Assembly (NCBI GenBank): GCA_021790795.1
Contig: JAJYFU010000016.1
Coordinates: 1-40,442 of the forward strand
Direction: 5' to 3'
Source: Pseudomonadota bacterium
GTDB taxonomy: Bacteria > Pseudomonadota > Gammaproteobacteria > Steroidobacterales > Steroidobacteraceae
DNA: 40,442 bases
Position 1 is the stretch's first letter. Each line of letters begins with the position of its first letter. A model generated the notes under the pieces. The model was not told where the DNA came from. It ran no database searches and saw only the letters and a program-made list of their open reading frames with translations. The translations under genes were made by a program, and so were the position numbers. Of this stretch, positions 1 to 14,119 are shown piece after piece.

Positions 1-644
1 AGGCGAGCGAGGAGGACATCGAGTTCGAAGACGGTGCGTTCCGCGTGAAGGGCACCGATCGCAGCAAGACTTTTGCCGAGATCGCCCTTGCCGCCTATGT
101 GCCCCACCATTACCCGATCGAGCAGCTGGAGCCCGGCCTCAACGAGAATGCGTTTTACGACCCCCCGAACTTCACTTTTCCCGCCGGCTCATATGTGTGC
201 GAGGTGGAAGTCGACCCGGAGACCGGCGCGGCGCGCATCGACCGATTCACCGCCTGCGATGACTTCGGCAATGTCGTCAATCCCATGATCGTGGAGGGCC
301 AGGTGCACGGCGGGCTCGCGCAGGGTATCGGCCAGGCGCTGCTCGAAGGATGCCGCTACGACGAGGAGAGCGGACAACTCCTCACCGGAAGCTTGCTCGA
401 TTACACCCTGCCGCGCGCCGACGATCTGCCCGGCTTTCGCGTCGAGACCGTCAAGGGCACGCCCTGCAAGCACAACCCCCTCGGCGTCAAAGGCTGCGGC
501 GAGGCCGGCGCCATTGGATCACCTCCGGCGGTGATCAACGCCCTGATCGATGCGCTCGCGCCCTACGGCGTGCGCGAGCTCGAGATGCCGGCGACGCCAT
601 TTCGCATCTGGCAGGCCCTCGCGGCCGCGCGCGGCACGAGGTAA
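1..644 (+). CDS. coxL: CO dehydrogenase-type molybdenum hydroxylase large subunit, 3' part
   Basis: The gene enters from outside the window; the first whole codon is at base 3, and 213 residues of the C-terminal molybdopterin-binding domain remain. Visible family features are the segment [20 protein letters not shown] (about residues 83-102 of the fragment) and the loop [18 protein letters not shown]. In this family that loop carries the conserved glutamate next to the molybdenum. The subunit holds Mo-cytosine dinucleotide and would oxidise CO or a related small substrate. The active-site loop that separates form I from form II CoxL lies upstream, so substrate cannot be read here. The stop lies five bases before coxM. 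The family is clear; assignment to CO rather than another substrate rests on the coxM-D-E-G genes that follow. Confidence 0.85.
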
Positions 645-649
645 TCGCC

Positions 650-1447
650 ATGCCGAACCTTTCCTATCACCGACCCTCCTCCATTACCGAGGCCGTCCGG
701 ATGGCCCACGACGATCCGGAGGCCAAGCTGCTCGCCGGCGGCCAGTCGATCATTCCCTCACTGAAGCTCGGACTGCTCGCGCCGTCGGCATTCATCGACC
801 TCGGCGGGCTCGCCGATCTGCGCGGAGTACGCCTCGACGGGCGGTCGCTGCGTATCGGTGCGATGACCTCACACGCCGAAGTGGCGAACTCGGCGCACGT
901 TCGCCAGCACCTGCCCGCGCTCGCGCACCTCGCCTCGGGCATCGGCGACCGGCAGGTCCGCAATCGCGGTACCGTCGGCGGCTCCCTGGCCAACAGCGAT
1001 CCGGCGGCGGACTACCCGGCCGCGGTGCTCGGCCTCGGCGCCGAGCTGCGCACTGACAGGCGCGCGATCCCGGCCGACTCTTTCTTCCACGGACTCTTCG
1101 CGACCGAGCTCGGCTCCGACGAGATTGTCACCGCGGTGGAATTTCCGTTGCCGGAGCGGGCGGCGTACGTCAAGTTCCCGCAGCCCGCATCGCGGTTCGC
1201 GCTCGTCGGCGTGTTCGTCTCGCTGACAGGCAAGTCGGTCCGTGTCGCCGTCACGGGCGCGGGCCCTTGCGTCTTCAGGGTTCCGGAGATGGAGCAGGCC
1301 CTCGCCAGGCGCTTCGCGCCCCAATCTCTGAACGGCATCACGGTGCCGGCGGGCTCCTTGAACGCCGACCTGCACGGCAGCGCCGAATATCGCGCCCATC
1401 TCATTCCCGTATTGACGCGGCGCGCCGTGGAGCAGGCGCTCGCGTGA
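650..1447 (+). CDS. coxM: CO dehydrogenase-type medium subunit, FAD-binding
   Basis: This 265-residue flavoprotein subunit takes electrons from the iron-sulfur subunit and passes them to the respiratory chain. FAD-binding signatures are LLAGGQSIIPSLKL near residues 24-37 and the glycine-rich TVGGSLANSDPAADYP near 107-122, both typical of the CO dehydrogenase/xanthine dehydrogenase FAD domain. The ATG at 650 follows a GAGG with about eight bases of spacing that overlaps the coxL stop, so L and M are probably translationally coupled. A longer open frame upstream only runs antisense-free through coxL and is not used. It is slightly shorter than typical CoxM (about 285 residues). The L-then-M order differs from the M-S-L order of classical form I operons. 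Confidence 0.88.
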   Translation: MPNLSYHRPSSITEAVRMAHDDPEAKLLAGGQSIIPSLKLGLLAPSAFIDLGGLADLRGVRLDGRSLRIGAMTSHAEVANSAHVRQHLPALAHLASGIGDRQVRNRGTVGGSLANSDPAADYPAAVLGLGAELRTDRRAIPADSFFHGLFATELGSDEIVTAVEFPLPERAAYVKFPQPASRFALVGVFVSLTGKSVRVAVTGAGPCVFRVPEMEQALARRFAPQSLNGITVPAGSLNADLHGSAEYRAHLIPVLTRRAVEQALA

Positions 1448-1466
1448 GGCCGGGCCGCCCCCGCCC

Positions 1467-2390
1467 GTGACGCGACAACCCGGCAAACCGGCCTCGATCG
1501 AGGACACTCGATCGCTGCTCCTGGCGCACGACTATGTGGCCGACCGGCCGCTGGCGACCGCGGTGTTCCTCGCGCTTGCGCTCGAGCGGCCGCTATTCCT
1601 CGAGGGAGAACCCGGTACCGGCAAAACGGAGATCGCCAAAGTACTCGCGCTCGCCCTCGGGGCGGAGCTCATCCGCCTGCAATGCTACGAGGGCCTGGAT
1701 GCGAGTCTTGCCGCGTACGAGTGGAACTATGCGCGTCAGATGCTGGAAATCCGCCTGCGCGAGACCACCGACGAGCCGCGTGAGCGGATCGCCTCGAACC
1801 TGTTCTCGGAACGCTTCCTGATCGCGCGCCCTCTGCTGCGGGCGCTCCAACCGCACGACCCGCCGGCGGTGCTGCTCATCGACGAGATTGATCGGGCCGA
1901 CGAGCCTTTCGAGGCCTACCTGCTCGAGGTACTCTCGGATTTCCAGATCAGCATACCCGAGCTCGGTACGATCGCGGCGGAGCGCCCGCCGGTCGTGATC
2001 ATTACATCGAACCGCACGCGCGAGATTCACGACGCCGTCAAGAGGCGCTGCATCTATCACTGGGTAGACTATCCCGATGCCGCGCGCGAGCTCGACATCC
2101 TGCGCCGCCGCGTTCCTCAGGCACAAGAGGCTCTGTCACGGCAAGTGGTCGCATTCGTGCAGCAGTTGCGCACGCTGGACCTGTACAAGCTGCCCGGGCT
2201 TTCGGAAACGATCGAGTGGGGCCGCGCACTGATCGCGCTCGATGCGCAGTCGCTCGACCCCCAGATGCTCGATGATACGTTGGGGCTGCTCCTGAAATAC
2301 CAGGACGACATCGTTCGCGTGCGTGGCGCACAGACCCGACGCCTGCTCGAAACCGTCCGCGCCGCCGACGCGGCGCCTCGATCATGTTGA
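1467..2390 (+). CDS. coxD: MoxR-type AAA+ ATPase, CO dehydrogenase maturation factor
   Basis: A 307-residue MoxR-family AAA+ ATPase. Walker A is GEPGTGKT at residues 47-54 and Walker B is VLLIDE at 135-140, followed by DRADEPFEAYLLEVLSD of the MoxR family. In Oligotropha, CoxD acts with the von Willebrand factor protein CoxE to install the sulfur and copper of the Mo-Cu centre. That role is inferred here from the family and from coxE directly downstream. The start is GTG, 19 bases after coxM, with no convincing ribosome binding site. The 3' end overlaps coxE by seven bases. It could serve a CoxL homologue that does not oxidise CO. Confidence 0.87.
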   Translation: MTRQPGKPASIEDTRSLLLAHDYVADRPLATAVFLALALERPLFLEGEPGTGKTEIAKVLALALGAELIRLQCYEGLDASLAAYEWNYARQMLEIRLRETTDEPRERIASNLFSERFLIARPLLRALQPHDPPAVLLIDEIDRADEPFEAYLLEVLSDFQISIPELGTIAAERPPVVIITSNRTREIHDAVKRRCIYHWVDYPDAARELDILRRRVPQAQEALSRQVVAFVQQLRTLDLYKLPGLSETIEWGRALIALDAQSLDPQMLDDTLGLLLKYQDDIVRVRGAQTRRLLETVRAADAAPRSC

Positions 2391-3640
2391 GAGTCTCGAC
2401 CGACACACAGGCCGGAGTCGGCCGTCTCGCCGATAACGTGCTGCATTTTGTCCGCGTGCTGCGCAAAGCGGGCCTGCGGATCGGCACCGACCGGCCGCTG
2501 CTCGCGCTCGAGGCGCTGCAGGTGGGCGGTCTGCACTCCCGCGAGGACGTGCGCTCCATACTATGCGCCTGCCTCATCGATCGCATCGAGCACCGTCCGT
2601 TGTTCGAGCAGGCCTTCGACGTTTTCTGGCGCGATCCCGCCGCTGCGCTCGACCTGCGGGCCGCACCCGCGGGACCGGAGCCCGCGCGCCCGCACGATCA
2701 TCGACCCTACCGGATGGTCAACCGACGCCTGGCCGAAGCGCTTTGGCCGGGTGGCCACACCGTGCGACCCGCACCCGAGTTCCCCGACTCGGGGCGAGCC
2801 GGCGAGGTTCAGCCGAGCTGGTCGGATCGCGAGCGACTGCGCAGCCTCGACTTCGAATCCATGACGGGCGAGGAATGGAGGGCCGCGGGTCGCGCCGTCG
2901 CCGCGCTTGCGCTCGGGTTCCAGCGGCTGCGCTCGCGGCGCGAGACGGCCTCGGCGCGCGGACAGCGCGTGGATCATCGCAGGCTCATGCGCGAGGCCGC
3001 CCGCCGCGGCGGAGACTTCGTCGTGCTGCCGCGGCGCATGCGTACCGCCCGCATCGAGCCGATCGTCGCCCTGGTCGATGTCTCCGGCTCGATGTCACGC
3101 TATTCGCGCATGTTTCTGCAATTGCTTCATGCGCTCATCAACCGCCCGGTCTCCCACGGCTCGAGCACGACTCGCCTGCGGGTCGCTGCGTTCGTCTTCG
3201 GCACCCGACTGACCCCTGTCACCCGTGAGCTCGCGGCACGCGATCCGGACGAAGCGCTCGCGTGCGTGGCCCACAAGGTGCCGGACTGGTCGGGCGGCAC
3301 GCGCATCGGGGCCTGCCTGAAGGATTTCAACCGGGCGTGGGCGCGCCGACTGTCGCTCGCCAGCGCAACCGTGATGCTCGTGACCGATGGTCTGGAGCGC
3401 GCCGATATCGAGCTTCTTTCCGAAGAGGCGGCGCGTCTCTCGCGCTCATGCCGGCGGCTCATCTGGCTCAACCCGCTGCTGCGTTACGAGTCCTTCGCGC
3501 CCGAGGCCCGCGGCGTGCGCACACTCCTGCCGTATGCCGACCGCTTTCTGCCCGTCCACAACCTCGAATCCCTGGAGCGCCTGGCCCTCGTCCTCGGCCA
3601 GAACACGCACAGCCGGTGGGAGACTCGACCATGGAATTGA
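2384..3640 (+). CDS. coxE: von Willebrand factor A domain protein, CoxE-like maturation factor
   Basis: A 418-residue protein with an N-terminal region of unknown fold, a basic linker (about residues 180-222) and a C-terminal VWA domain. The MIDAS metal site is complete: DVSGS at 232-236, threonine 306 in WSGGTRIG, and aspartate 335 in VTDG. VWA proteins next to MoxR ATPases form chaperone pairs, and CoxE with CoxD is needed for maturation of the active site of CO dehydrogenase. The ATG lies inside the end of coxD, so the two are probably translated in concert. The 3' end overlaps coxG by ten bases. Orthologues are usually near 400 residues, so it looks intact. Confidence 0.87.
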   Translation: MLRVSTDTQAGVGRLADNVLHFVRVLRKAGLRIGTDRPLLALEALQVGGLHSREDVRSILCACLIDRIEHRPLFEQAFDVFWRDPAAALDLRAAPAGPEPARPHDHRPYRMVNRRLAEALWPGGHTVRPAPEFPDSGRAGEVQPSWSDRERLRSLDFESMTGEEWRAAGRAVAALALGFQRLRSRRETASARGQRVDHRRLMREAARRGGDFVVLPRRMRTARIEPIVALVDVSGSMSRYSRMFLQLLHALINRPVSHGSSTTRLRVAAFVFGTRLTPVTRELAARDPDEALACVAHKVPDWSGGTRIGACLKDFNRAWARRLSLASATVMLVTDGLERADIELLSEEAARLSRSCRRLIWLNPLLRYESFAPEARGVRTLLPYADRFLPVHNLESLERLALVLGQNTHSRWETRPWN

Positions 3641-4182
3641 AAGGCGAGCGGCTGCTCGGCGCCGATCGCGACACCGCCTGGCGCATGCTCAACGACGTCG
3701 ATGTCCTCAAGCGCAGCGTGCCGGGATGCGAGAGCATGACGGTGACCGGGGAACACACCTACGACGTGGTCATGCGCGCCGCCGTGGGTCCGGTGCGTGC
3801 GCGCTTCGCGGGCAAGGTCAACCGAGCCGATGTCGAGCCGCCAAGCCGATACCGCCTGGACTTCGAAGGTCAGAGCCCGCAGGCGGGATTCGCCCGCGGC
3901 CAAGTCCGGGTGGAACTCGAGGAGACCACTCCCGGGGAAACACGGCTGCGCTACGCGGCGTCCGTGCAGATTGGCGGCAAGCTCGCGCAGATCGGCTCCC
4001 GCCTGATCGATGCGGCCGCGGCCGCCACCGCGGAGAAGTTCTTCGAGTCCTTTGCCGCGCAGATTCCAGCGACATCCGCGTCCGCAAGTTCCGGTGCGGC
4101 ACCTCCCGGCGCCCCGGTGCGCTGCGGATCCTGCCGCTGGCTGCTTGCCTTCATCCGCCATCTGCTCGCGCGCAGGACCTGA
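3631..4182 (+). CDS. coxG: CoxG-like SRPBCC protein, membrane recruitment factor
   Basis: A 183-residue START/SRPBCC-fold protein that begins MELKGERLLGADRDTAWRML, the usual opening of the CO dehydrogenase subunit G family. Family members bind a lipid or quinone in the SRPBCC cavity and anchor the CO dehydrogenase to the membrane. The core spans about residues 1-145, then an Ala/Ser/Pro linker leads to a short hydrophobic tail (WLLAFIRHLL) preceded by CGSC. The tail could be the membrane anchor. The ATG overlaps the coxE stop, so this is the last gene of the coupled L-M-D-E-G run. No coxF lies between E and G, unlike Oligotropha. Confidence 0.85.
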   Translation: MELKGERLLGADRDTAWRMLNDVDVLKRSVPGCESMTVTGEHTYDVVMRAAVGPVRARFAGKVNRADVEPPSRYRLDFEGQSPQAGFARGQVRVELEETTPGETRLRYAASVQIGGKLAQIGSRLIDAAAAATAEKFFESFAAQIPATSASASSGAAPPGAPVRCGSCRWLLAFIRHLLARRT

Positions 4183-4207
4183 TACTTCGCCGGCGGGATT
4201 TCGGGCG

Positions 4208-4224
4208 GCGCGCCGTCGGCGCGC
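4208..4224. repeat. GC-rich hairpin between convergent genes
   Basis: GCGCGCC and GGCGCGC pair across a three-base loop in the 152-base gap between coxG and the convergent MFS gene. No T-run follows on either strand, so it is at best a weak or factor-assisted terminator. The rest of the gap shows nothing recognisable. Confidence 0.3.
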
Positions 4225-4334
4225 GACTCGCCATCGACGGGCTCTGCCCCGGGAAATTTCCCGCCCGCCTGCGCATCGATCCGGCGAGAGCACGCGGGTC
4301 AGTCCGCCGGGCACCTCGGCCGTCTGTCATCGGC

Positions 4335-5549
4335 TCATTTTCGAGCACAGACCGGGGTCCGCCGCGCGGGCAGTAGTCTGCGGCGAAAAACCACCGCCAG
4401 AAGCACACACGCGCCGCCGCTGATGAGGGCATCCGTGATGAACGCGCCGGTGATGCCGCTCCAGTCGTATCCGCGCGCGTCGATGAATTCCATGTAGTCG
4501 ATCGGCAGATTCATGGCGGCGATGAGCAGCGCGTAGGTCGTGGCGGCCAGAGCATTCCCCGGTCCGATGACCTCGAAGATGACGGCGGCGGCCGTGGCAA
4601 TGGCCGCCGAGGAAAAGAAGGTCTCGCCGACGAACGCGACCGCGAAGGTCGTGGACACCCGCGGCAGGAGCAGGAGGCTGAGCGTGAATACGGCGCCCAC
4701 ACAGCCAATCGCCAGATAGAGCGGCCGAAGCGGCAGCCGCCGCGCCGCGAACGGCACGAGCGCACAGCCGGCGACGCCGCCGAGGATCAGTCCCGCCCCG
4801 CTGATCCGGCTCACGAAGGCGGGCGCGGCGTGAAACGTCCCGCTCCAACTTCCCAAGGTATTGGAGAGCGCGAACGAGGCCGACGGAAGCGCGAACAGGC
4901 ACAGGGCCACGACGACGTCCGAGCGCCCCAGCAGTGCGACGAGGTCGCGCTTGAATCGCCCGACGCTCTCGTGGACCCGCGACCCCTCCGGCGGCAACGC
5001 CGGAACCCAGGGAAACACCAGCAGCGGCGCAAGGAAGGTGGCGAAGATGAGCGCGGCGGCCGGCCCGGGCGGCAGATCTCGCGTCGCCGCACCGGAAATC
5101 AGGATTCCGGCGCCGCCCCCGCAGATGTTGTAGATCGTGCTCCATGCGCCGAGCGGGCTGTCTTGGTCTTTCTCGACCAGACTACCCATCCAGCCGCCGA
5201 TGGCGGACTGGAACATGCACCCGGACAGGAAGGCCCCGAGCATCATGACTTCGACTTGCCCGATCCCGACAGGGTACATCACGGTCAATGCCGTGACCGC
5301 GACCGCCAAGACACCGAAGACAAGCGCGTACGTACGGCGCTTGAAGCCGACGTCGATCAACGGGGCGAAGATGAAGTTCCAGAACATGGGTGAGAGAATG
5401 ACCGCAACGGCGACGGCGATACGGCCACCCGTGACGCCTCGAGGAGCCAGCAGCTGCGGCAGCGTCACGATGATGAAGCCGGTCAGCATCCCGAACGTCA
5501 GCCACGGCAGCGCGAGAATCCAGATAGGGGGGATACGTTGCCTGTTCAC
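4335..5549 (-). CDS. MFS transporter, AmpG/PAT-like, copy 1
   Basis: A 404-residue, very hydrophobic protein with about 12 predicted membrane segments. Characteristic stretches are RRTYALVFG after the second or third helix, GGWMGSL in the middle of the N-terminal half, and IGPGNALAATTYALL in the C-terminal half. It most resembles AmpG/acetyl-CoA-transporter-type major facilitator proteins, but I cannot name a substrate. The start is GTG with a GAGG seven bases upstream. A clear paralogue lies at 8869-10107 on the other strand, and the P-type ATPase lies between them. Stop-to-stop with coxG, so it is not part of the cox operon. Confidence 0.8.
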   Translation of the reverse strand: MNRQRIPPIWILALPWLTFGMLTGFIIVTLPQLLAPRGVTGGRIAVAVAVILSPMFWNFIFAPLIDVGFKRRTYALVFGVLAVAVTALTVMYPVGIGQVEVMMLGAFLSGCMFQSAIGGWMGSLVEKDQDSPLGAWSTIYNICGGGAGILISGAATRDLPPGPAAALIFATFLAPLLVFPWVPALPPEGSRVHESVGRFKRDLVALLGRSDVVVALCLFALPSASFALSNTLGSWSGTFHAAPAFVSRISGAGLILGGVAGCALVPFAARRLPLRPLYLAIGCVGAVFTLSLLLLPRVSTTFAVAFVGETFFSSAAIATAAAVIFEVIGPGNALAATTYALLIAAMNLPIDYMEFIDARGYDWSGITGAFITDALISGGACVLLAVVFRRRLLPARRTPVCARK

Positions 5550-5848
5550 GCGGGCACCTCAGGCAGCAATGACGCTCACTGCAGATCGACCGACGGACGC
5601 TTGCTCGGGATGCCGAATCGATTCCGACGGCGCACGCGGATCAGCCCCGGGACGGGCATGCGTTGCCGCTGCATCCCGCCGCAGTGCGCGTGATTCGGGC
5701 CGATTCAGCCGGACCTGGTGGGTTCGTGGGCATTCGATTCCGTCGGGAAGATGCAACGTCGCGGATCGACGGTACGCCATGGGCACGCTGGCAGGCAAGC
5801 GCCCGGCGCCGAGTGCCCCGAAGCCGGCGTCCGCATCGAGGCGGTCTC
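5550..5848. other. Intergenic stretch without a convincing gene
   Basis: About 300 bases between the ATPase stop and the start of MFS copy 1, both on the minus strand. Open frames are present, but their Arg/Ala/Ser-rich translations look like composition artefacts. The stretch probably holds the promoter and leader of the MFS gene; I see no clear -35/-10 pair. Confidence 0.4.
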
Positions 5849-7861
5849 TCACGGGGATACGGTGGCCTGCTCGCGCTCCTGCCGTGCCCGATCGCCATGG
5901 CGCTGCCTCCCGGGCAGCAGCCGCGCCGAATTCAGGATGAATACCAGCTCGGACGCGACGTGAATGAACGCCGCCAGCAGCGGATTGAGCAGCCCCGCGG
6001 CCGCTAGCGCGATACCGAACGCATCGACCCCGATGGTGCCGGCGAAGTTGACCCAGATGATGCGCCGGGTACGCCGCGCGAGCGCGAGCGTCTCGCCGAG
6101 CCTGCCCAAATCGTTCCCGAGCAGCACGACGTCGGCGCTCTCCCGCGCCACATCGGTTCCCGAGCCCATGGCGAGGCCCACCTGAGCCGCAATCAGCGCC
6201 GGCGCGTCGTTGATGCCGTCACCCACCATCGCGACGATGCGGCGATCCCCGACGAGACCCTCGATGTAGGCTCGCTTGTCTTCGGGAAGCAGCTCGGCCC
6301 GGACTTCGGCGATGCCGAGCTGAGCGGCGACCGATTCGGCCACCGCCCGGGTATCTCCCGTCAGGAGGACGGTGCGCACACCGAGCGCCTGGACGGCCGC
6401 CACGGCGCTGTGCGCCTCCGGCCGCACGAGATCGGCGATCTCGATCGCCCCGAGCAGCATGCCGCCCCGGGCGACATACACCTCGGTCGAGCCTCGATGG
6501 GCATTCGCGAGAGCATCCGGCACGGAAATGCCGTGGTCCCGCAACAAGGTGAGATTTCCCACGTACACCTGCTCACCCGCGATCGTCGCATCGATCCCTC
6601 GGCCCGGCTGATAGCCGAAGCGCTCGGGCTCGACGAGCGTACATCCCGCGGCGCGCGCATGCTCCACGATCGTCTTGCCGAGGGGATGCTCCGAGCGCAG
6701 CTCGGCCGCCGCCGCCGTCTCGAGCAGCGCGTGCGCCTCGACCCCCGCAACCGGATGCAGCGCGCGGATCTCCGGGTGACCGAACGTGAGGGTGCCGGTC
6801 TTGTCGAGCACGACCGTATCGACCCGGCCGAGCTGCTCCAGATAGAGCCCGCCCTTGACGATGGCTCCGCCGCGCGCGGCGCGACCGATCGCCCCCAGGA
6901 TCGCAAGCGGTGTGCCGGCGGCGATCCCGCAGGCTCCGGCGACGATGATGACCGAGATCGTCGAGCGAATATCGCGAGTGAGGAGATACGTCAGGAGCGC
7001 CGCCCCAAGGGCGAAATACACGAGATACCCGGCCAGCCGGTCGGCCAGCCGAAGCACCGGCGCCCGGGAGCGCTCGGCCTGCTCCACCGCCTCGATGATC
7101 TTGCCGAAGCTGGTGTCGCGGCCGATGCGCTCGGCGCGAATCTCGAGGGCACCGGACTGGTTGATCGATCCGGCGAACACGTCCGCCCCCGGCGTCTTCT
7201 CCACCGGCAGGGACTCGCCCGTGACCCGCGACTGATCGACGAACGAATGCCCCGCGATCACTGCGCCGTCCACCGGGATCCGGGCACCGGGGTTGACGAG
7301 TACGGCATCCCCCGGAATCAGCGTCTGCGCATCGACCTCGCAGACACCGCCGGCACGGCGGACCATGATCGCTCGCGGCAGGAATTCGAGCAGGTCGCGG
7401 ATCGCGCGCCGGCCGCGTGATACCGTCATGTCCTCGAGCACTTCGGCGACGAGCACGAAGAGCGTGATGACGAGCGCGGTGAAGAACTGCGTGATCGCCG
7501 CCGCCGCCACGATGGCGATGGTCATCGACAGCTCCATCGTCATCCGCCGCGCCAGAAGATTCTCCACCGCCTCCCTGAAGATCGGCCAACCGCCGACGAG
7601 CAGCCCCAGGACTCCGATCACACTGACGGCGCTCAGCGGCTCCCACACCCGAAACCACACCGCGGTTGCCGCCAGCGCCACCAGGAGGATGCGCGCCGCT
7701 TCGATCCACGTGAACGCGTGCCCAGCGCCAGGATCGTCATCCGCCCGATGCGCCGCCGGCTCCTTCGAGGCCGAATCGGCACCCGAGACGGGAGGCGCAG
7801 CGCTGTCCCGCGTCCGATCCACTCGGGCATCCGCGGCTGTGTGCCGCTGTTGCTCACTCAT
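5849..7861 (-). CDS. Heavy-metal-type P-type ATPase lacking the CPC motif
   Basis: A 670-residue P1B-like cation pump of the inner membrane. Seen in order: a hydrophilic His/Asp-containing N-terminus without a CxxC metal-binding domain (1-50), membrane helices, the actuator TGES at 214-217, phosphorylation site DKTGT at 353-357, HP at 391-392, and the hinge GDGIND at 546-551. The last helices end HVASELVFILNSARLL. The odd feature is transmembrane helix 6, where CPC/SPC would be expected: the protein reads Gly-Ala-Cys (309-311) before GIAAGTP, so the usual proline is gone. Metal specificity is therefore unclear. The gene starts 45 bases after a wrecked CsoR/FrmR-family repressor gene, which suggests it was once under its control. 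Confidence 0.85.
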   Translation of the reverse strand: MSEQQRHTAADARVDRTRDSAAPPVSGADSASKEPAAHRADDDPGAGHAFTWIEAARILLVALAATAVWFRVWEPLSAVSVIGVLGLLVGGWPIFREAVENLLARRMTMELSMTIAIVAAAAITQFFTALVITLFVLVAEVLEDMTVSRGRRAIRDLLEFLPRAIMVRRAGGVCEVDAQTLIPGDAVLVNPGARIPVDGAVIAGHSFVDQSRVTGESLPVEKTPGADVFAGSINQSGALEIRAERIGRDTSFGKIIEAVEQAERSRAPVLRLADRLAGYLVYFALGAALLTYLLTRDIRSTISVIIVAGACGIAAGTPLAILGAIGRAARGGAIVKGGLYLEQLGRVDTVVLDKTGTLTFGHPEIRALHPVAGVEAHALLETAAAAELRSEHPLGKTIVEHARAAGCTLVEPERFGYQPGRGIDATIAGEQVYVGNLTLLRDHGISVPDALANAHRGSTEVYVARGGMLLGAIEIADLVRPEAHSAVAAVQALGVRTVLLTGDTRAVAESVAAQLGIAEVRAELLPEDKRAYIEGLVGDRRIVAMVGDGINDAPALIAAQVGLAMGSGTDVARESADVVLLGNDLGRLGETLALARRTRRIIWVNFAGTIGVDAFGIALAAAGLLNPLLAAFIHVASELVFILNSARLLPGRQRHGDRARQEREQATVSP

Positions 7862-7906
7862 TGGATTGCTTTCATCGGAATGCCTTCGAACGGTGCGGTG
7901 AGGCGC

Positions 7907-8187
7907 TTATCGCAAACAGATGCGCATCACTTCGATGAGTACCCCGGCACCCTTGCGGCGCTCGGCATCCGTCGCGATCTTCGTACCGGCCACATGAGTC
8001 TCAATGCGCTCTTCCAGGACCTCCGACATCAGACCCTTGACGGTCCCTCGCACGACGGCGATCTACCGCAGGACTTCAGCGCAGCCCCGCTCGCCCTCCA
8101 CCGCCCCTTTTCAGCGCCTCGACCCGGCCACGAATGCGGCAAGCCCTGGAGAGCCGCTTTGACTTTCCCCCGTCGAGCGTGACTCAT
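7907..8187 (-). pseudogene. Decayed CsoR/RcnR/FrmR-family repressor gene
   Basis: No single frame is open, but three frames in sequence rebuild almost a whole FrmR-like protein of about 92 residues. Frame 1 starts at ATG 8187 (MSHARRGK) behind an AGGGA site. Frame 2 gives KSKRLSRACRIRGRVEALKR. Frame 3 gives AVEGERGCAEVLR, an amber codon at 8065-8063, then IAVVRGTVKGLMSEVLEERI and on to TAA at 7907. Removing one G from each of two G-runs (near 8166 and 8105) restores the frame. The amber sits where the family has Gln (AEVLRQIA). The sensor cysteine is kept; the family histidine near ESHIRE reads Arg. It lies directly upstream of the P-type ATPase on the same strand, the usual place for such a regulator. 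Confidence 0.8.
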
Positions 8188-8304
8188 TGACATCCCTTCT
8201 ATACTCTAGCAGGGGAACGCATAGTCTCACACCAGGACCCGACGCGGCCCAAAGGCGCGGCCCGTGCACCCTGGGGATACGAGTTCATCATTACGAACGA
8301 AGTT

Positions 8305-8330
8305 GCGCGGCACGTCAGAAAATGCCGCGC
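8305..8330. repeat. Stem-loop, 8-bp stem
   Basis: GCGCGGCA at 8305-8312 pairs with TGCCGCGC at 8323-8330 across a ten-base loop (CGTCAGAAAA). No T-run follows on either strand. It lies in the gene-free stretch, so it could be a terminator-like or mRNA structure, or chance in GC-rich DNA. Confidence 0.4.
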
Positions 8331-8632
8331 GCGATCGCCGAGCGTGACCGGACCGCGCCGGCATGCCCGCTGCCGCCTCCATGCCGCGGAGCCGCTCGAA
8401 TGTGCGCGTCGAGACATCTGCGGACCCACGCAGGCCGACCGAGGCGCGAATTTCCGGCAATAATCCGCTATACTTTCCCCCAATCCTGACAGGGTGACTC
8501 GGCGAATGCGGTCGTTCGTGATCTTCAGCGATTTCCCATCACCGCCCGAACCGAGGGGTGCGGCCGGGCCGCGAGACCCGGCTTGATTCCGGTGCAGAAG
8601 ATCGACATCAAGCGGGGCTTCGGTTCCCTGAC

Positions 8633-8662
8633 CCCTATCGCGATCCGCCCGAAGCGATAGGG
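8633..8662. repeat. Stem-loop, 9-bp stem
   Basis: CCCTATCGC at 8633-8641 pairs perfectly with GCGATAGGG at 8654-8662 across a 12-base loop. It lies about 200 bases upstream of MFS copy 2. It could be an operator, a REP-like element or a leader structure; there is no second copy in this window. Confidence 0.45.
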
Positions 8663-8868
8663 ATCACGCGCGACAAGCACCATGACCATTACCTTCGCCG
8701 ACACGAATATCGTCACCCGCGCCGCAGGGGCGGGCATCATCAAGACCCGACCACGCGACGCATTGTCGGCGCCCACACTCGCTGGGACGGACGTGCGCGT
8801 TGCGCCACGTCCCACAGGCGCCGCGGCGAGCCGCTCGTGTCCGGGTGACCATCGCGCTGGAGTGCGTG

Positions 8869-10107
8869 TTGACTAATTCCCGCGCCGAGCCGCGCCCGCA
8901 TCCGCCGATCTGGGTGATGGGCCTCACCAATGCCGTCTTCGGCATGATGGGCGGCTTTGCGGTGGTGACGCTGCCGCAGTTGCTCGCGGCCGAGGGCATC
9001 CCCGGCGGGCACATCGCTGCGATCACCGCCACCATCATCTCGCCGGGCTTCTGGGCCTTCATCCTCTCGCCGATGCTCGATGTGCGCCTGCGCAGGCGCA
9101 CCTATGCGCTCGTCTTCGGGGGAACCGCCGCCCTCGCCGTGGCGTTCACCGTGCTGCACCACAGCAACGTCGCCACGGTCGAGATCGTCATGCTCATCGG
9201 CTACCTGTCGGCCGCCTTGTATCAGGGTGCGGTCGGCGGCTGGATGGGCAGCCTCATCGGCCACGATGAAGACAGCCGGCTCGGCACGTGGTTCAGTGTC
9301 GCGAATATCGGCTCGAGCGGCCTGATCATCGTGGCCGGCGGACCGCTCATTCTGCACGCGCCTCGGGACCTCGCGGCCGCGTTCATGCTCATCGCCATGC
9401 TCGTCCCGACGGTGCTCTTCCTGTTCATCCCGGCGCCGCCGCCCGACAAGCTGCTCGCCAGCGAGAGCTTCGGTCGCTTCGGACGGTCCATCCTCGATCT
9501 GCTGCGCCGGCGCGAGGTGCTCATCGGGCTCGCGCTGTTCGTCCTGCCGTCGGCCTCCTTCGCCCTCACCAATGTGCTCGGGGGCATCGGCAAGGACTAT
9601 CACGCCACCGCCACGACCGTGAGTCTGTTCGCCGGCACCGGATCGATCGTGGCGGGTCTCGGCGGCAGCTTCCTGGTGCCGCGCCTGGCACGAAAAATCG
9701 AGCTGCGACGCCTGTATCTGCTGATCGGGATCGTGGGCGCGATGTTCACGTTCGCCACGCTGTTGCTGCCGCGAGCACCCTGGACCTTCGGGGTGGTGTT
9801 CACCGGTGAGATCATCTTCCAGGCACTCGCCTTCACGACCGCATTCGGTGTCGCCTTCCAGATCATCGGCCCCGGCAATCCGCTCGCTGCGACGATTTTC
9901 ACCGTTCTCATCGCCGCGATTAATCTGCCGATCGTCTACAGCGGGATGCTCGATGGCTGGGGATACGATCGCGGAGGGCTCGTCGGCAGTTTCGTCATGG
10001 ACGCCGGCGTCAGGCTCGCCTCGTGCATCCTGCTCGCGATCGTTCTGCGGCGCTGGTTGTTTGCCGCTCGTCCTGCGCCGCTGCCGGAATCGTCGCTGTC
10101 GGACTAG
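8869..10107 (+). CDS. MFS transporter, AmpG/PAT-like, copy 2
   Basis: A paralogue of the protein at 4335-5549. It shares PPIW near the N-terminus, the helix end TLPQLLA, RRRTYALVFG, GGWMGSL, LPSASFALTN, and IIGPGNPLAATIF followed by IAAINLPI. About 12 membrane segments are expected. The substrate is not identifiable. The start is uncertain: TTG at 8869 has GGAG six bases upstream and gives 412 residues, close to the 404 of copy 1. GTG 8866, GTG 8845 and ATG 8800 are also in frame, but the longer N-termini are not shared by copy 1. The two copies differ enough to suggest an old duplication. Confidence 0.8.
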   Translation: MTNSRAEPRPHPPIWVMGLTNAVFGMMGGFAVVTLPQLLAAEGIPGGHIAAITATIISPGFWAFILSPMLDVRLRRRTYALVFGGTAALAVAFTVLHHSNVATVEIVMLIGYLSAALYQGAVGGWMGSLIGHDEDSRLGTWFSVANIGSSGLIIVAGGPLILHAPRDLAAAFMLIAMLVPTVLFLFIPAPPPDKLLASESFGRFGRSILDLLRRREVLIGLALFVLPSASFALTNVLGGIGKDYHATATTVSLFAGTGSIVAGLGGSFLVPRLARKIELRRLYLLIGIVGAMFTFATLLLPRAPWTFGVVFTGEIIFQALAFTTAFGVAFQIIGPGNPLAATIFTVLIAAINLPIVYSGMLDGWGYDRGGLVGSFVMDAGVRLASCILLAIVLRRWLFAARPAPLPESSLSD

Positions 10108-10150
10108 CCGAGCCCGGCCGCGCGGTGACGGCACACGCCGCCGCGGAGCG

Positions 10151-10180
10151 CGCGCGTCAAAGCTCAACGATCAACGCGCG
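10151..10180. repeat. Stem-loop between convergent genes
   Basis: CGCGCGT at 10151-10157 pairs with ACGCGCG at 10174-10180 across a 16-base loop. It lies in the 142-base gap between MFS copy 2 and the convergent acetyltransferase gene. There is no T-run, so a terminator role is only a suggestion. Confidence 0.3.
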
Positions 10181-10249
10181 GGTGCGCATTCAGGTGGTGC
10201 GACAGATCTTTCACCCCGGTTCGGCGAGCCCTTCCACGGGTAAGGGCGT

Positions 10250-10867
10250 TCACGCGAACTGCGCAAGACGCGCCTCGAGGCGTCGTCTGACCTCCGGCCA
10301 CTCGCTATTGAGAATGGAGAAATAAACCGTATCGCGGATGTACCCGGTCCACGTGAGCCGGTCCCGGCGCAGCACGCCTTCGCGCACCGCGCCGAGCTTC
10401 GAGACCGCAGCCTGACTGCGCTGATTACGGGTATCGACCCTGAACTGCACCCGCACGGCGCCCATGGAAAAGGCGTGCTGCAGCATCAACAGCTTGGCTT
10501 CAGGGTTCACCACACCGCCGCGCACATCCGGATGCAGGAACGAGGCTCCGATCTCGACTCCGCCTTCACCCGCAAGCGCGGTGTCGAACGTGGACATCCC
10601 CACGACACGCGCATCCTCCCGGCGGCGAATCGCATAGGTCATGCGCTCGTTCCTGGGAGCATCGCACGCCGCCGCCCAATACTTCTCGAAACCCTGCCCG
10701 GTGGGATTGATGGGCATGATGGCCCACGTTTGCGGATCGCAGTCGATCGCTGCGCGAACCTCCTCTTTCAAGCACGGCTCGAACGGCTCCATGCGGATAT
10801 ATCGGCCTTCAAGGAACTCAAAGGTCAGTTGCATACAGCGCGGGTCGGATCTGGTGGATACATTCAC
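10250..10867 (-). CDS. GNAT-family N-acetyltransferase
   Basis: A 205-residue protein of the RimJ/RimL-like GNAT class. It begins, at the second methionine, MQLTFEFLEGRYIRMEPFEP, the usual opening strand of this family. It then has VVGMSTFDTALAGEGGVEIG and the acetyl-CoA-binding region around EAKLLMLQHAFSMGAVRVQF, and ends with the typical NQRSQAAVSKLGAVREGVLR. It would transfer an acetyl group to an amine on a protein terminus or small molecule; the target is unknown. The start may be ATG 10834, which fits the family better than ATG 10867; neither has a good ribosome binding site. It stands alone between the MFS gene and the island scar. Confidence 0.8.
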   Translation of the reverse strand: MNVSTRSDPRCMQLTFEFLEGRYIRMEPFEPCLKEEVRAAIDCDPQTWAIMPINPTGQGFEKYWAAACDAPRNERMTYAIRRREDARVVGMSTFDTALAGEGGVEIGASFLHPDVRGGVVNPEAKLLMLQHAFSMGAVRVQFRVDTRNQRSQAAVSKLGAVREGVLRRDRLTWTGYIRDTVYFSILNSEWPEVRRRLEARLAQFA

Positions 10868-11019
10868 ACACTGCGCGACGCGGATCGGTCACCGCCCGCG
10901 CCTCTTGCCCGCCCGGGAACAGCCGGCGCGACATTCCTCCGGCAGGTCGGAGCGTCTTGCGCCACATTCCCACAGGCAAAGGCCGCCGTCTATCGCGTGG
11001 GAGCCTCGTCTGAGATGGC

Positions 11020-11131
11020 GGAAATATTTCCTGCGAATTCCCTGGCGAGAACATGATCTCACCGCGTAAATCGCTGGCTTGACGAGGCAGTCCGAAGCCG
11101 AGAACCAGGCTCAATTTCGCACTTCATCCTT
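11020..11131. repeat. Decayed attachment-site copy (repeat A)
   Basis: Aligns over its full length with 11535-11646 at a constant offset of about 515 bases and, by eye, roughly two-thirds identity. It starts at GGAAATATTT. Its right part (from about 11090) mirrors the 3' half of the tRNA-Gly gene, for example AGGCTC followed by TTCGC. It looks like the far attachment site of an element that integrated at tRNA-Gly, now heavily mutated. Confidence 0.6.
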
Positions 11132-11434
11132 TTGATTCCGCAGGCAATCCCGCAAGTGTGCCGCGGACGCGCTCCGACGACCGCCTGGAGCGCTCGGGTC
11201 TTGCCTGATTACGCGCCCAAGGCTTCCTTCCTGGCGCGGGACCTCGCCCGCGATCAGACTCACTTGTTCGGCGGCATGAGCGCCCGTGAGCTACCGACCT
11301 TGCATGAAATCCAGGCGCTGTCGTCACACCCGTACGCGGCGGCCGGCTACGAGGTGGTCACAGTCCAGGAGCTGATGGCGCACAGGGACCTGAATATGAC
11401 GCGGGCGTATCAGAACGGGCACGCCCGCAAGGGC
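11132..11434 (+). pseudogene. Tyrosine recombinase (integrase) C-terminal remnant
   Basis: The recognisable part is about 11261-11431, translating to RELPTLHEIQALSSH, then AAGYEVVTVQELMAHRDLNM and TRAYQNGHARK. This is the C-terminal catalytic segment of phage/island integrases (HxLR, LMGH and the tyrosine box). The nucleophile tyrosine is present (codon 11408-11410), but the second catalytic arginine of HxxR is Gln (codon 11312-11314). Everything N-terminal of about residue 44 is unrecognisable, and the frame runs on through repeat B. The fragment lies between the two attachment-like repeats, next to the 3' end of tRNA-Gly. Confidence 0.7.
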
Positions 11435-11534
11435 TGCGGGTCGAGATGTTGCTCCCCTACGGGGTGCTGCAGTGCGGCGATGCCGTCAACAAGAGGCATG
11501 CCAACTAATGCGTGGCCTGCCTTGCAGGAGCTCA

Positions 11535-11646
11535 GGAAATATTTTTTTGAGAATTTCCTCAGCGAAAACAAGTTCGCCGTATAAGTTTCTGAATTCAGAG
11601 GAAATCTGGAGCGGGAAACGAGGCTCGAACTCGCGACCTCAACCTT
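11535..11646. repeat. Attachment-site copy at the tRNA-Gly 3' half (repeat B)
   Basis: The partner of 11020-11131. It runs from GGAAATATTTTTTTGAG, just downstream of the tRNA, through the acceptor and T arms to near the anticodon. The tRNA side is kept intact by selection, while repeat A has drifted. Confidence 0.6.
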
Positions 11647-11682
11647 GGCAAGGTTGCGCTCTACCAACTGAGCTATTCCCGC
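11607..11682 (-). tRNA. tRNA-Gly (anticodon GCC)
   Basis: A 76-base cloverleaf with encoded CCA. The acceptor stem GCGGGAA (5' end at 11682) pairs with TTCCCGC (11611-11617). The D-arm has AGCTCAGTTGGTAGAGC, the anticodon stem-loop has CTTGCCAAG with GCC at positions 34-36 (11649-11647), and the T arm has GTTCGAG. All invariant positions look normal, so it should be functional despite being used as an integration site. Confidence 0.97.
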
Positions 11683-11699
11683 TCGCGAGGGGAGCGGGC

Positions 11700-11727
11700 A
11701 TTTTAGGGAACGGGGAGGCGAAGTCAA
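11700..11727 (-). promoter_or_regulatory. Sigma-70 promoter of tRNA-Gly
   Basis: On the minus strand TTGACT (11727-11722), a 16-base spacer and TAAAAT (11705-11700), followed by a GC-rich discriminator (GCCCGCTCCC) typical of stringently controlled stable-RNA promoters. The tRNA 5' end is 17 bases after the -10 box. Confidence 0.75.
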
Positions 11728-11736
11728 TCCGCGCGG

Positions 11737-12291
11737 TCAGCGCTTGAGCTCGGGCCAGGCGGCTCGCAGGTAGGTCACCATGGAGACCAGTGTGGCCGCG
11801 GCCGCAAGCTCGATGAGCATCACCCCGGTGGAATAGATCGGCACCCCGGCCAGCCGGTGGTGGTAGAGCATCATGGACAGCCCCACGATCTGCAGCACCG
11901 TCTTGACCTTGCCGAGCTGGGACACCGCGACCTTGCGCCGCTCGCCGATCTCGGCCATCCACTCGCGCAGCGCCGAAATCGTAATTTCCCGCCCAATGAT
12001 CACCACGGCGGTGAGCACGATCAGCGCGCGGGTATCCTGGCTCACGAGCAATACCAGTGCCACCGCGACGATCAGCTTGTCCGCCACCGGGTCGAGAAAT
12101 GCGCCCAGACGAGAGGTCTGCCCGAGCCGCCGGGCGAAATACCCGTCCAGCGAGTCCGTGATGCCCGCGGCGGCAAACAGCAACCCTGCCGCCGGATCCG
12201 CCCAGGGATACGGCATGTAGAAGAGCAGCACGATGAGCGGGATCGCCCCGATGCGCAGCAAAGTCAAGGTGTTCGGCACATTCCAGGGCAT
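11737..12291 (-). CDS. pgsA: CDP-diacylglycerol--glycerol-3-phosphate 3-phosphatidyltransferase
   Basis: A 184-residue inner-membrane enzyme that makes phosphatidylglycerol phosphate, the committed step to phosphatidylglycerol and cardiolipin. The CDP-alcohol phosphotransferase motif DG-x2-AR-x8-G-x3-D-x3-D is complete: DGYFARRLGQTSRLGAFLDP followed by VAD. The N-terminus MPWNVPNTLTLLRI is the standard PgsA opening, so ATG 12291 is preferred over an in-frame start 33 bases upstream inside uvrC. Several hydrophobic helices follow. It starts eight bases after the uvrC stop; the uvrC-pgsA pairing is also known from E. coli. Confidence 0.95.
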   Translation of the reverse strand: MPWNVPNTLTLLRIGAIPLIVLLFYMPYPWADPAAGLLFAAAGITDSLDGYFARRLGQTSRLGAFLDPVADKLIVAVALVLLVSQDTRALIVLTAVVIIGREITISALREWMAEIGERRKVAVSQLGKVKTVLQIVGLSMMLYHHRLAGVPIYSTGVMLIELAAAATLVSMVTYLRAAWPELKR

Positions 12292-12298
12292 GCGAGTC

Positions 12299-14119
12299 TC
12301 AAGATCCTGGATGCAGGTGATCATAAAGGGAACGCGCCAGAGTTGCTCCCACTCCTTCGACCTGCTGCAAATCCGCCACGCCGGCGCGCAGCACCCCCTG
12401 CAGCCCCCCGAAGTGCATCAGCAAGGCCCGCCGCTTGGCCGGACCCAGGCCCGGAATGCTCTCCAGAACCGATTCCGTATAGCGGCGTGCGCGCTTGCGG
12501 CGATGGCCCGTTATGGCAAATCGATGGGCCTCGTCCCGGATGCGCTGAACGAGCCGAGATGCCGGCGAATGCGCTTCCGGAATGCGCGCCACCCCTTCCC
12601 CATACAAGTATAGACGCTCCTGCCCCGGACGCCGATCCGGCCCTTTGGCGACGCCGACCAGCGTGATGCCAACCACACCGAGCGCCTCGAGTTCCGTGTG
12701 CACGCCCTCGATCTGGCCCAATCCACCGTCGATCAGCAGCAGATCGGGACGCGGCACTTCCTCGTTGCGCACCCGCGTATAGCGGCGCTTGAGCGCCTGA
12801 CGCAGCGCGCCATAGTCATCACCCGGCGTGATGCCGGTGATGTTGAATCGGCGGTACTCCTTCTTCAGTGGTCCCTCGGGACCGAATACCACGCACGAGG
12901 CCACCGTGCCCTCACCGCTGGTGTGGCTGATGTCGAAGCACTCCATGCGCGCGGGGGGCGACGGCAGCTCGAGTTCCGCGGCGAGCGCCGCCAGCATCTC
13001 CTCCATGCCCTGGCGCCGAGCCAGACGCATGCGCAGCGCCTGCTCGGCGTTCTCGCGCGCCAGCCGCACCCACCGGACAGTGAGGCCCCGCGCCGGACAG
13101 CGCACCGCCACCGTGTGGCCCGCGCGCGCGCCGAGCGCCTCACCGAGCGCCTCGGCGTCCTCCAGACGCCGCCCCACCAACACCTCGGCCGGCGGGTCGT
13201 GCTGCGCGTAGTACTGCATCAGAAACGACGACAGCGCCTCTTGCGGCTCCGCGAGCGCGGCACGGGGGAAACTGCTGGTGGTGCCGAGATTGCGCCCGCC
13301 GCGCACCAGCATCGCGCTGACGGCGTACTCGCCCGGCTCCCCGACGATCTCGAACACATCGGCGTCGCGCTCCTGCTCGGCGGTGACCACCTGCTGGGCC
13401 TGAATCTCGCGCAGCGCCGCGAGCTGATCGCGCAGCTGTGCGGCGCGCTCGTATTCTTGTCGTTCAGCCGCCTGGCGCATCCGTCCAGCGAGTAATTGGT
13501 TGACCTCTTCGCTGCGCCCCTCGAGCACCTTCACCGCCGCCTCGATATCCTGCCCATATGCCTCCCGACCGATCAGGCCGACGCACGGCGCCGAGCAGCG
13601 ACCGATCTGATGCTGCAGGCACGGCCGGCTGCGGTGGGCAAAGAAGCTGTCGCGGCAGTTGCGGATCCGAAACAGCTTCTGCAGCTGATTGAGCGTCTCG
13701 CGCACCGCGGCGCTGCTCGGAAAGGGACCGAAATAGCGCGCCCCGGAGGTCCGGGCGCCGCGGTACAACGACAGCCGCGGGAAGGGGTGACCGACGCCGA
13801 GCAGGATGTAGGGGTAGCTCTTGTCGTCGCGCAGGACCACGTTGAAGCGCGGCCGATGCGCCTTGATCAGGTTGTACTCCAGCAGCAGCGCCTCGGTCTC
13901 CGAGTGCGTGACCGTCACCTCCATGTCCGCGATCTGCTGCACCAGCGCCTGAACCTTGGGGCTGACGTCGCTCGCCGTGAAATAGCTGCCCACACGGTCC
14001 CTCAGGCTCCTCGCCTTCCCAACGTACAGCAGCTCATGGCCGCGATCGAACATGCGATAGATGCCCGGCCGGCGCGGCAATGCGGCCACGAATGCCTTGG
14101 GATCGAATGCGGTGCTCAC
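12299..14119 (-). CDS. uvrC: Excinuclease ABC subunit C
   Basis: A 606-residue endonuclease subunit that makes the 3' and 5' incisions in nucleotide excision repair. N-terminal GIY-YIG nuclease domain (PGIYRMFDRG then LLYVGKARSLRDRVGSYF, about 18-47), a UVR segment binding UvrB (about 200-238, AERQEYERAAQLRDQL), the RNase H-like endonuclease domain containing ECFDISHTSGEGTVASCVVF, and tandem helix-hairpin-helix motifs at the end (SIPGLGPAKRRALL). Length matches the family. The start is GTG, nine bases after the stop of the uracil-DNA glycosylase gene, placing two DNA repair genes in one transcript. Confidence 0.97.
   Translation of the reverse strand: MSTAFDPKAFVAALPRRPGIYRMFDRGHELLYVGKARSLRDRVGSYFTASDVSPKVQALVQQIADMEVTVTHSETEALLLEYNLIKAHRPRFNVVLRDDKSYPYILLGVGHPFPRLSLYRGARTSGARYFGPFPSSAAVRETLNQLQKLFRIRNCRDSFFAHRSRPCLQHQIGRCSAPCVGLIGREAYGQDIEAAVKVLEGRSEEVNQLLAGRMRQAAERQEYERAAQLRDQLAALREIQAQQVVTAEQERDADVFEIVGEPGEYAVSAMLVRGGRNLGTTSSFPRAALAEPQEALSSFLMQYYAQHDPPAEVLVGRRLEDAEALGEALGARAGHTVAVRCPARGLTVRWVRLARENAEQALRMRLARRQGMEEMLAALAAELELPSPPARMECFDISHTSGEGTVASCVVFGPEGPLKKEYRRFNITGITPGDDYGALRQALKRRYTRVRNEEVPRPDLLLIDGGLGQIEGVHTELEALGVVGITLVGVAKGPDRRPGQERLYLYGEGVARIPEAHSPASRLVQRIRDEAHRFAITGHRRKRARRYTESVLESIPGLGPAKRRALLMHFGGLQGVLRAGVADLQQVEGVGATLARSLYDHLHPGS

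Follow-up and report, generated by a model that had tools for sequence, protein, structure and literature searches.

Background

Elements of the clc-like ICE kind are found at tRNA-Gly genes. The locus studied here also lies at a tRNA-Gly gene, in a stretch of 40,442 nucleotides (the window hereafter) from a draft genome of 186 contigs, and the conjugation genes of an ICE cannot fit in the 0.5 kb that it occupies. What are the closest described systems? The Islander map (PMC4383910) lists 125 tandems and 148 damaged islands out of 3919. As in the tRNA islands set out there, the window has an intact tRNA gene, a 3' tRNA fragment in the same orientation and a tyrosine integrase between them, with a crossover region of the anticodon type. 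Unlike those islands, its integrase is a stump, its fragment is decayed and the whole measures about 0.5 kb. Such a scar would probably escape automatic searches that look for an integrase gene with a good fragment. Among the tRNA gene fragments derived from elements (PMC9897764), a partial tRNA copy likewise marks integration; in the window the fragment is too decayed for a tRNA call, and the arm of an older element lies on its outer side.

Lambda integrase is alike in sequence to the integrase considered below, named intY, of which an intact copy is found at locus L117 of a relative; intY differs in that its target is tRNA-Gly, and the window copy is dead. The L117 element itself shares with the window the tRNA, the arm, the attR and the P' junction, while its integrase is intact, its far side is the native tRNA-Cys side, and no older relic stands outside its attR. 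From the comparisons below we consider it very probable that the 627 bases at 11020-11646 join what is left of the ends of two dead, related elements, at a tRNA-Gly gene that is a hot spot of integration. In what follows G, C and L numbers denote genomes, contigs and loci.

The repeat and the tRNA gene

The target gene is an intact tRNA-Gly(GCC) at 11607..11682 on the minus strand, called by ARAGORN, and in relatives pgsA adjoins the same gene. It is regenerated and intact, being identical at 76/76 bases to eight same-genus copies. Six of these (G003, G008, G012, G014, G022 and G024) are separate matches over all 76 bases, and the other two (G020 and G023) lie inside longer matches at 97.6-98.8%.

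A reading made from the sequence alone (the sequence-only reading) had described imperfect repeats of 112 bases, 11020-11131 (copy 1) and 11535-11646 (copy 2), held at a steady 515-base offset. Is the repeat real? As a gapped alignment it is. With several 1-base gaps the two copies align at about 70% identity with a score of 36, above the maximum of 17.5 reached in 5000 dinucleotide shuffles (0/5000), and with a second gap cost they match in 80/115 columns (score 39, 0/2000 shuffles). The part outside the tRNA, taken alone, still gives 49/70 columns and a score of 23 against a shuffle maximum of 14 (0/2000). The part in the tRNA passes narrowly when taken alone, by one point (27/37 columns, 16 against 15, 0/2000). 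The steady offset, in contrast, proves unexceptional. Ungapped, it gives 55/112 matches, which none of 5000 shuffles of the pair reaches, but five other offsets beat it within 9500-13500, and 698 of the 40217 offsets in the whole window give a better 112-base match, so that nothing can be concluded from the offset itself.

The repeat was also said to include the tRNA 3' half, with the tRNA copy preserved, and this agrees with what we find. The attL core, which is the 3' part of the tRNA from the anticodon to the CCA end (11607..11652, minus strand), is identical at 46/46 bases to a displaced core beside an intact intY on contig C81 of G003. The displaced 3' fragment at 11092-11131 is in the same orientation; its 27/37 columns are narrow by shuffle and strong by the attR motif given below. 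It is too decayed for a tRNA call, ARAGORN giving one tRNA only.

The integrase between the copies

The claim of a tyrosine-recombinase C-terminus between the copies holds on two grounds. The open frame 11132-11584 matches PF00589 weakly (E 0.0034, 17.6 bits, below the cut-off of 27.1 bits), and the stump is 56.8% identical over 132 aa to an intact same-genus integrase. Aligned to G003 C81 2211-1712 and to L117, and judged also by its codon-position pattern, the intY stump of the younger element covers 11160..11584 on the plus strand, about the last third of the gene. A 22-base spacer (11585..11606, plus strand, P-arm side) separates the intY stop from the core. This spacing is shared by most copies: it runs to TAA in 7 of the 10 copies read and to CAA in 2, and it is different in 1 (L118).

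The first two thirds of the gene are gone, the frame carries a one-base shift, and Arg is changed to Gln in the HxxR box. Since the stump is truncated and frameshifted and has lost this Arg, it is a dead remnant, not an island. Changes found only in the stump, that is, not shared with G003, L116, L117 and G058, number 8, 9 and 4 at codon positions 1, 2 and 3 (93, 93 and 95 columns compared), against 3, 1 and 12 in the intact L117. About 1.1 kb of L117 is missing from the window between 11147 and about 11180. The GC content is 59.8% in 11092-11606, compared with 67.9-68.1% in 1-8208 and 11607-40442.

Is there an intact relative to compare with? In G003 a 432-aa homologous frame lies on C81, a contig of 129.5 kb, where the end of the gene, the arm and a 46-base core can be aligned with window 11160-11652. 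Eight intY loci came from a scan of GTDB species genomes; L115 among them belongs to G003 and L119 to G058. A complete tRNA-Gly adjoins the integrase in six of them (L116, L117, L118, L119, L120 and L122) and in neither L115 nor L121. The occupied site that the sequence-only reading proposed to look for in relatives is thus seen at three loci, where intact intY frames stand beside tRNA-Gly: 439 codons in L116, 428 in L117 and at least 433 in the stretch of L118 that was read.

L117 is the best delimited of these and shows both ends. On JASHPX010000241.1 the order is tRNA-Gly (7325-7400), 22 bases, intY (about 6016-7302), the P' arm, attR (5731-5770) and tRNA-Cys (5618-5691). Lying between tRNA-Gly and tRNA-Cys, the stretch 5731-7400 is an intact element of about 1.55 kb with an integrase only; on the integrase strand, intY is the single long frame between attR and the tRNA. 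Its intY matches lambda integrase (PDB 1z1b, 5j0n and 1z1g) over residues 18-227 with E about 2e-6, and PHROG family phrog_1 with E 1.9e-28. The intact relatives carry both the lambda integrase similarity and the tyrosine-recombinase catalytic motifs; judged by these likenesses, intY is a lambda-type tyrosine integrase. One IMG/VR scan gave no viral relatives of intY. Distant relatives occur in two phage records, under 60% identity, and in one plasmid record.

Some further features of the intY copies were observed. In G058 the gene is split by other DNA (L079 10426-7514), with codons 110-250 and 252-319 standing 2.3 kb apart, and in L121 757-6378 a distance of 5 kb separates codons 54-115 from codons 150-275. 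The integrase 3' ends in G003, G058 and G007 (L061, L079 and L076) each contain a perfect palindrome of 18 bases, TCAGGAAATATTTCCTGA. Of this palindrome the window retains the 12-base centre at one place, in copy 1, and L116 and L117 lack the 18-base form.

The attR and the DNA outside it

The L117 attR aligns with window 11091-11147. In the window the attR of the younger element, a decayed core with the P' junction, is placed at 11092..11139 (plus strand) by a leave-one-out motif score, and the start of the P' arm at 11132..11147 (plus strand) by alignment to the L117 P' arm. The 40-base profile was made from L117, G077, G058 and G007, the window being left out. It scores 38.7 at 11100-11139, while the next best score in the window is 11.5, at the tRNA itself, and a shuffled control of 797 kb reaches 15.4 with the full profile. 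Note that the leave-one-out score is not wholly independent, because the attR 40-mers were lined up after the window match had been seen. The P' arm by itself (11121-11160) scores 16 against a maximum of 15 in 5000 mononucleotide shuffles, a margin of one point. The same attR is found in G077, G058 and G007. The length from attR to tRNA is 467 bases in the window, 1324 in G077, 1554 in L117, 6486 in G007 and 10454 in G058. With the profile, no attR was found for the genomes of L116 and L118. A candidate on G003 C81 (50738, motif score 18.0) was rejected, as a likeness beyond the 40-mer is not supported (46/2000 shuffles against L117 and 1097/2000 against G058). A search for attR plus P' through 58 genomes of the genus gave 4 matches, one of which is the known G077 site (G051 being the same record as G077); as the window, G058 and G007 were not among them, the search is not sensitive enough for counting copies.

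With attL, attR and an integrase stump in place, an integration scar at tRNA-Gly stands as proposed. Was it left by a single element? The part of the proposal that names one element gives way to two nested ones, on account of what lies outside the attR. The 72 bases of the repeat outside the tRNA, 11020-11091, cannot be att core; from their resemblance to other arms, they are read as what an older, second element left of its 3' end and its arm. The similarity runs further left. The extension 10960-11019 matches G058 in 39/50 columns (0/2000 shuffles), to about 10966, and matches G003 and G007 with 1/2000 shuffles each, while against copy 2 it is not significant (67/2000), nor is the longer stretch 10866-11019 against G003 (57/2000). 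The relic of the older intY, comprising the integrase gene 3' end and the arm, is placed by arm comparison at 10966..11091 (plus strand). This stretch and its extension lie on the outer side of the attR, where native DNA would be expected after a single integration, and hence they point to a second element.

If there had been only one element, its attR would be copy 1, and what is alike beyond the tRNA would be incidental or convergent. This is the simpler account, and an attR with a P' arm is indeed present. However, the 72 bases match copy 2 at 49/70 with none of 2000 shuffles as good, and the stretch 10950-11091 matches six independent arms with scores of 26-45 against shuffle maxima of 14-18. 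The same outer stretch is blank at the five other attR sites or candidates (L117, G077, G058, G007 and the unsupported candidate of G003), with scores of 7-12 that are within chance. An intY relic outside attR is thus found in the window only, among the six sites or candidates, and we regard a single element as improbable.

Could copy 1 instead be a local duplicate of copy 2? A tandem duplication of a unit of about 515 bases, made of the integrase end and the tRNA 3' half, would require no second element and would produce two like copies with one orientation, spaced by about 515 bases, as is seen. But the alignment shows features of G003, G058 and G007 in copy 1 that are missing from copy 2. 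In the stretch of the integrase 3' end, copy 1 is identical to G007 at 26/36 positions, to G058 at 25/36 and to G003 at 21/36, compared with 15/36 to copy 2. With G007 and G058 as closer kin than copy 2, it is taken to be a separate older member of the family, not a local duplicate. The arm itself does not discriminate, with 66-70% identity to all. Moreover, copy 1 is followed on its right by a P' arm and not by the 5' part of a tRNA. For these affinities and the P' arm we reject local duplication, whose probability we put even lower than that of a single element.

Two related elements therefore remain our preferred reading. The TAA of the older copy also stands 22 bases from the core, as in six others of the ten copies read. 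An attR or distal tRNA fragment of its own was searched for with the attR profile, and none was found in the window left of 10966. The older member keeps only the relic of its integrase end, while a tandem in the Islander sense requires an integrase gene and a tRNA fragment for each member.

The tRNA gene in relatives

Does the same gene receive elements elsewhere? Relatives with the spacing of the window and no sign of an island were not seen: at 20 of 20 same-genus loci, homology to the window ends at most 16 bases from the tRNA 3' end, although four of these contigs stop within 100 bases of the tRNA and so say little. The distance from tRNA-Gly to tRNA-Cys is 61 bases in G002, about 1.9 kb in G017 and G021, 31.3 kb in G006, 69.1 kb in the genome of L118 and 101.7 kb in G001. 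Both occupied and empty sites are present in relatives.

An integrase of another family, X, adjoins the same tRNA-Gly in G001, G003 and G014, with its C-terminus facing the tRNA as that of intY does; blastp gave no match between the two families at E 1e-3. In G001 a second copy of the tRNA 3' end (39/40 bases) lies 65.8 kb downstream and would delimit the element there. The family X frame of G001 (L053) appears to extend into the tRNA-Gly 3' end, its last residues being encoded by the tRNA. Short matches at the family X/tRNA-Gly end were seen in L120 and L122.

In G003 the intY core and the intact intY are on C81 (L061 1-1757) without a tRNA, and beyond that core is a 28-base inverted match to the family X arm, which stands at the tRNA on contig C70 (L043). 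As these matches read, an element of another family has taken the place of the intY element of G003 at the tRNA, the same process as we propose for the window.

Partial copies of the tRNA-Cys 3' end are present in L099 (G058 C3), in L097, L100 and L102 (G003), in L101 and L103 (G006) and in L098 (G012). These copies make the neighbouring tRNA-Cys look like a further integration site. The backbone genes after tRNA-Cys were tried as an anchor for the far end of the islands and failed, that side being variable too. No tRNA-Cys match was found in the genome of the window.

Flanking genes and cargo

The sequence-only reading also took the element to have lost nearly all its cargo, which is unproven. 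L117 has the same ends and an integrase only, while G058 and G007 carry cargo between the tRNA-side core and attR. In G058 this includes an SNF2 helicase, a Gp49/HI1420-type toxin-antitoxin pair, a PIN protein and nucleotidyltransferase-like, NikA/TacA-like and methyltransferase-like proteins, with intY pieces in between. As relatives of both kinds exist, the parent of the window element may have been of either. Window 1-10900 was considered as cargo of the younger element and rejected, because the attR at 11092-11139 lies to the right of it.

Might genes on the left be cargo of the older element instead? An MFS transporter gene (8800..10107, plus strand; MFS_1 E 1.7e-7, just below the cut-off) and a GNAT acetyltransferase gene adjoining the older relic (10250..10867, minus strand; Acetyltransf_3 E 2.4e-12) are intact reading frames. 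Further left, window 1-8208 is a block of CO-dehydrogenase-type, AAA, CoxE-like, MFS and heavy-metal P-type ATPase genes. The two MFS genes, at 4338-5549 and 8800-10107, are on opposite strands and about 64% alike at the DNA level over about 1.1 kb.

It is possible, though unlikely, that within a scar of two elements the MFS and GNAT genes, and perhaps the block with the P-type ATPase and CO-dehydrogenase genes, are surviving cargo of the older one. The MFS gene 8800..10107 is 86% identical in DNA to C81 24886-26125 of G003, the contig with the intact intY. A closely related CoxE-like gene (82-84% identity) occurs in only 3 of 57 other genomes of the genus, and the block adjoins the same tRNA-Gly in G058. 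On the other hand, the P-type ATPase block is outside attR in G058 and G007, the MFS gene adjoins the ATPase in G066 too, and the profile finds no attR left of 10966.

Discussion

How could two elements come to be joined within half a kilobase? An older element with a lambda-type intY, its gene ending 22 bases from the core, would have integrated at the 3' end of the tRNA gene. A younger intY element would then have integrated at the regenerated tRNA, presumably by recombination through its own intY. By insertion at this place, the older integrase end and arm would become the outer (B') side of the younger attR. Later the younger element may have lost its inside, from the P' arm to codon 290 or so of intY (some 1.1 kb if L117 is a fair model), and what remained would have drifted, except for the 46-base core, which doubles as tRNA. 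This order of events, like the internal deletion, is proposed from sequence comparison.

There is a further question, what such elements carry when they move. L117 is intact, the same-genus G077 is decayed at about 1.3 kb, and the relic in the window is about 0.5 kb. These three suggest that intY elements might travel and persist as integrase-only units of about 1.5 kb, a reading that we hold to be rather doubtful. If it were true, the cargo of G058 and G007 was inserted later, partly inside the integrase gene, and an island at this tRNA would begin as a bare integrase marking the site and grow, instead of beginning loaded and shrinking.

The window adds one worked case of how elements accrete and decay at a hot spot in a tRNA gene. 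The scar is of an ordinary kind and brings no new principle. It does show that an intergenic stretch of half a kilobase can store two successive integrations, which are legible only through relatives. The L117 integrase, intact and with both ends of its element known, is a possible small integration tool. More generally, the comparison delimits an intY family at tRNA-Gly by its attachment site, its arms and its 22-base geometry, in poorly studied proteobacteria that are known here from assembled metagenomes.
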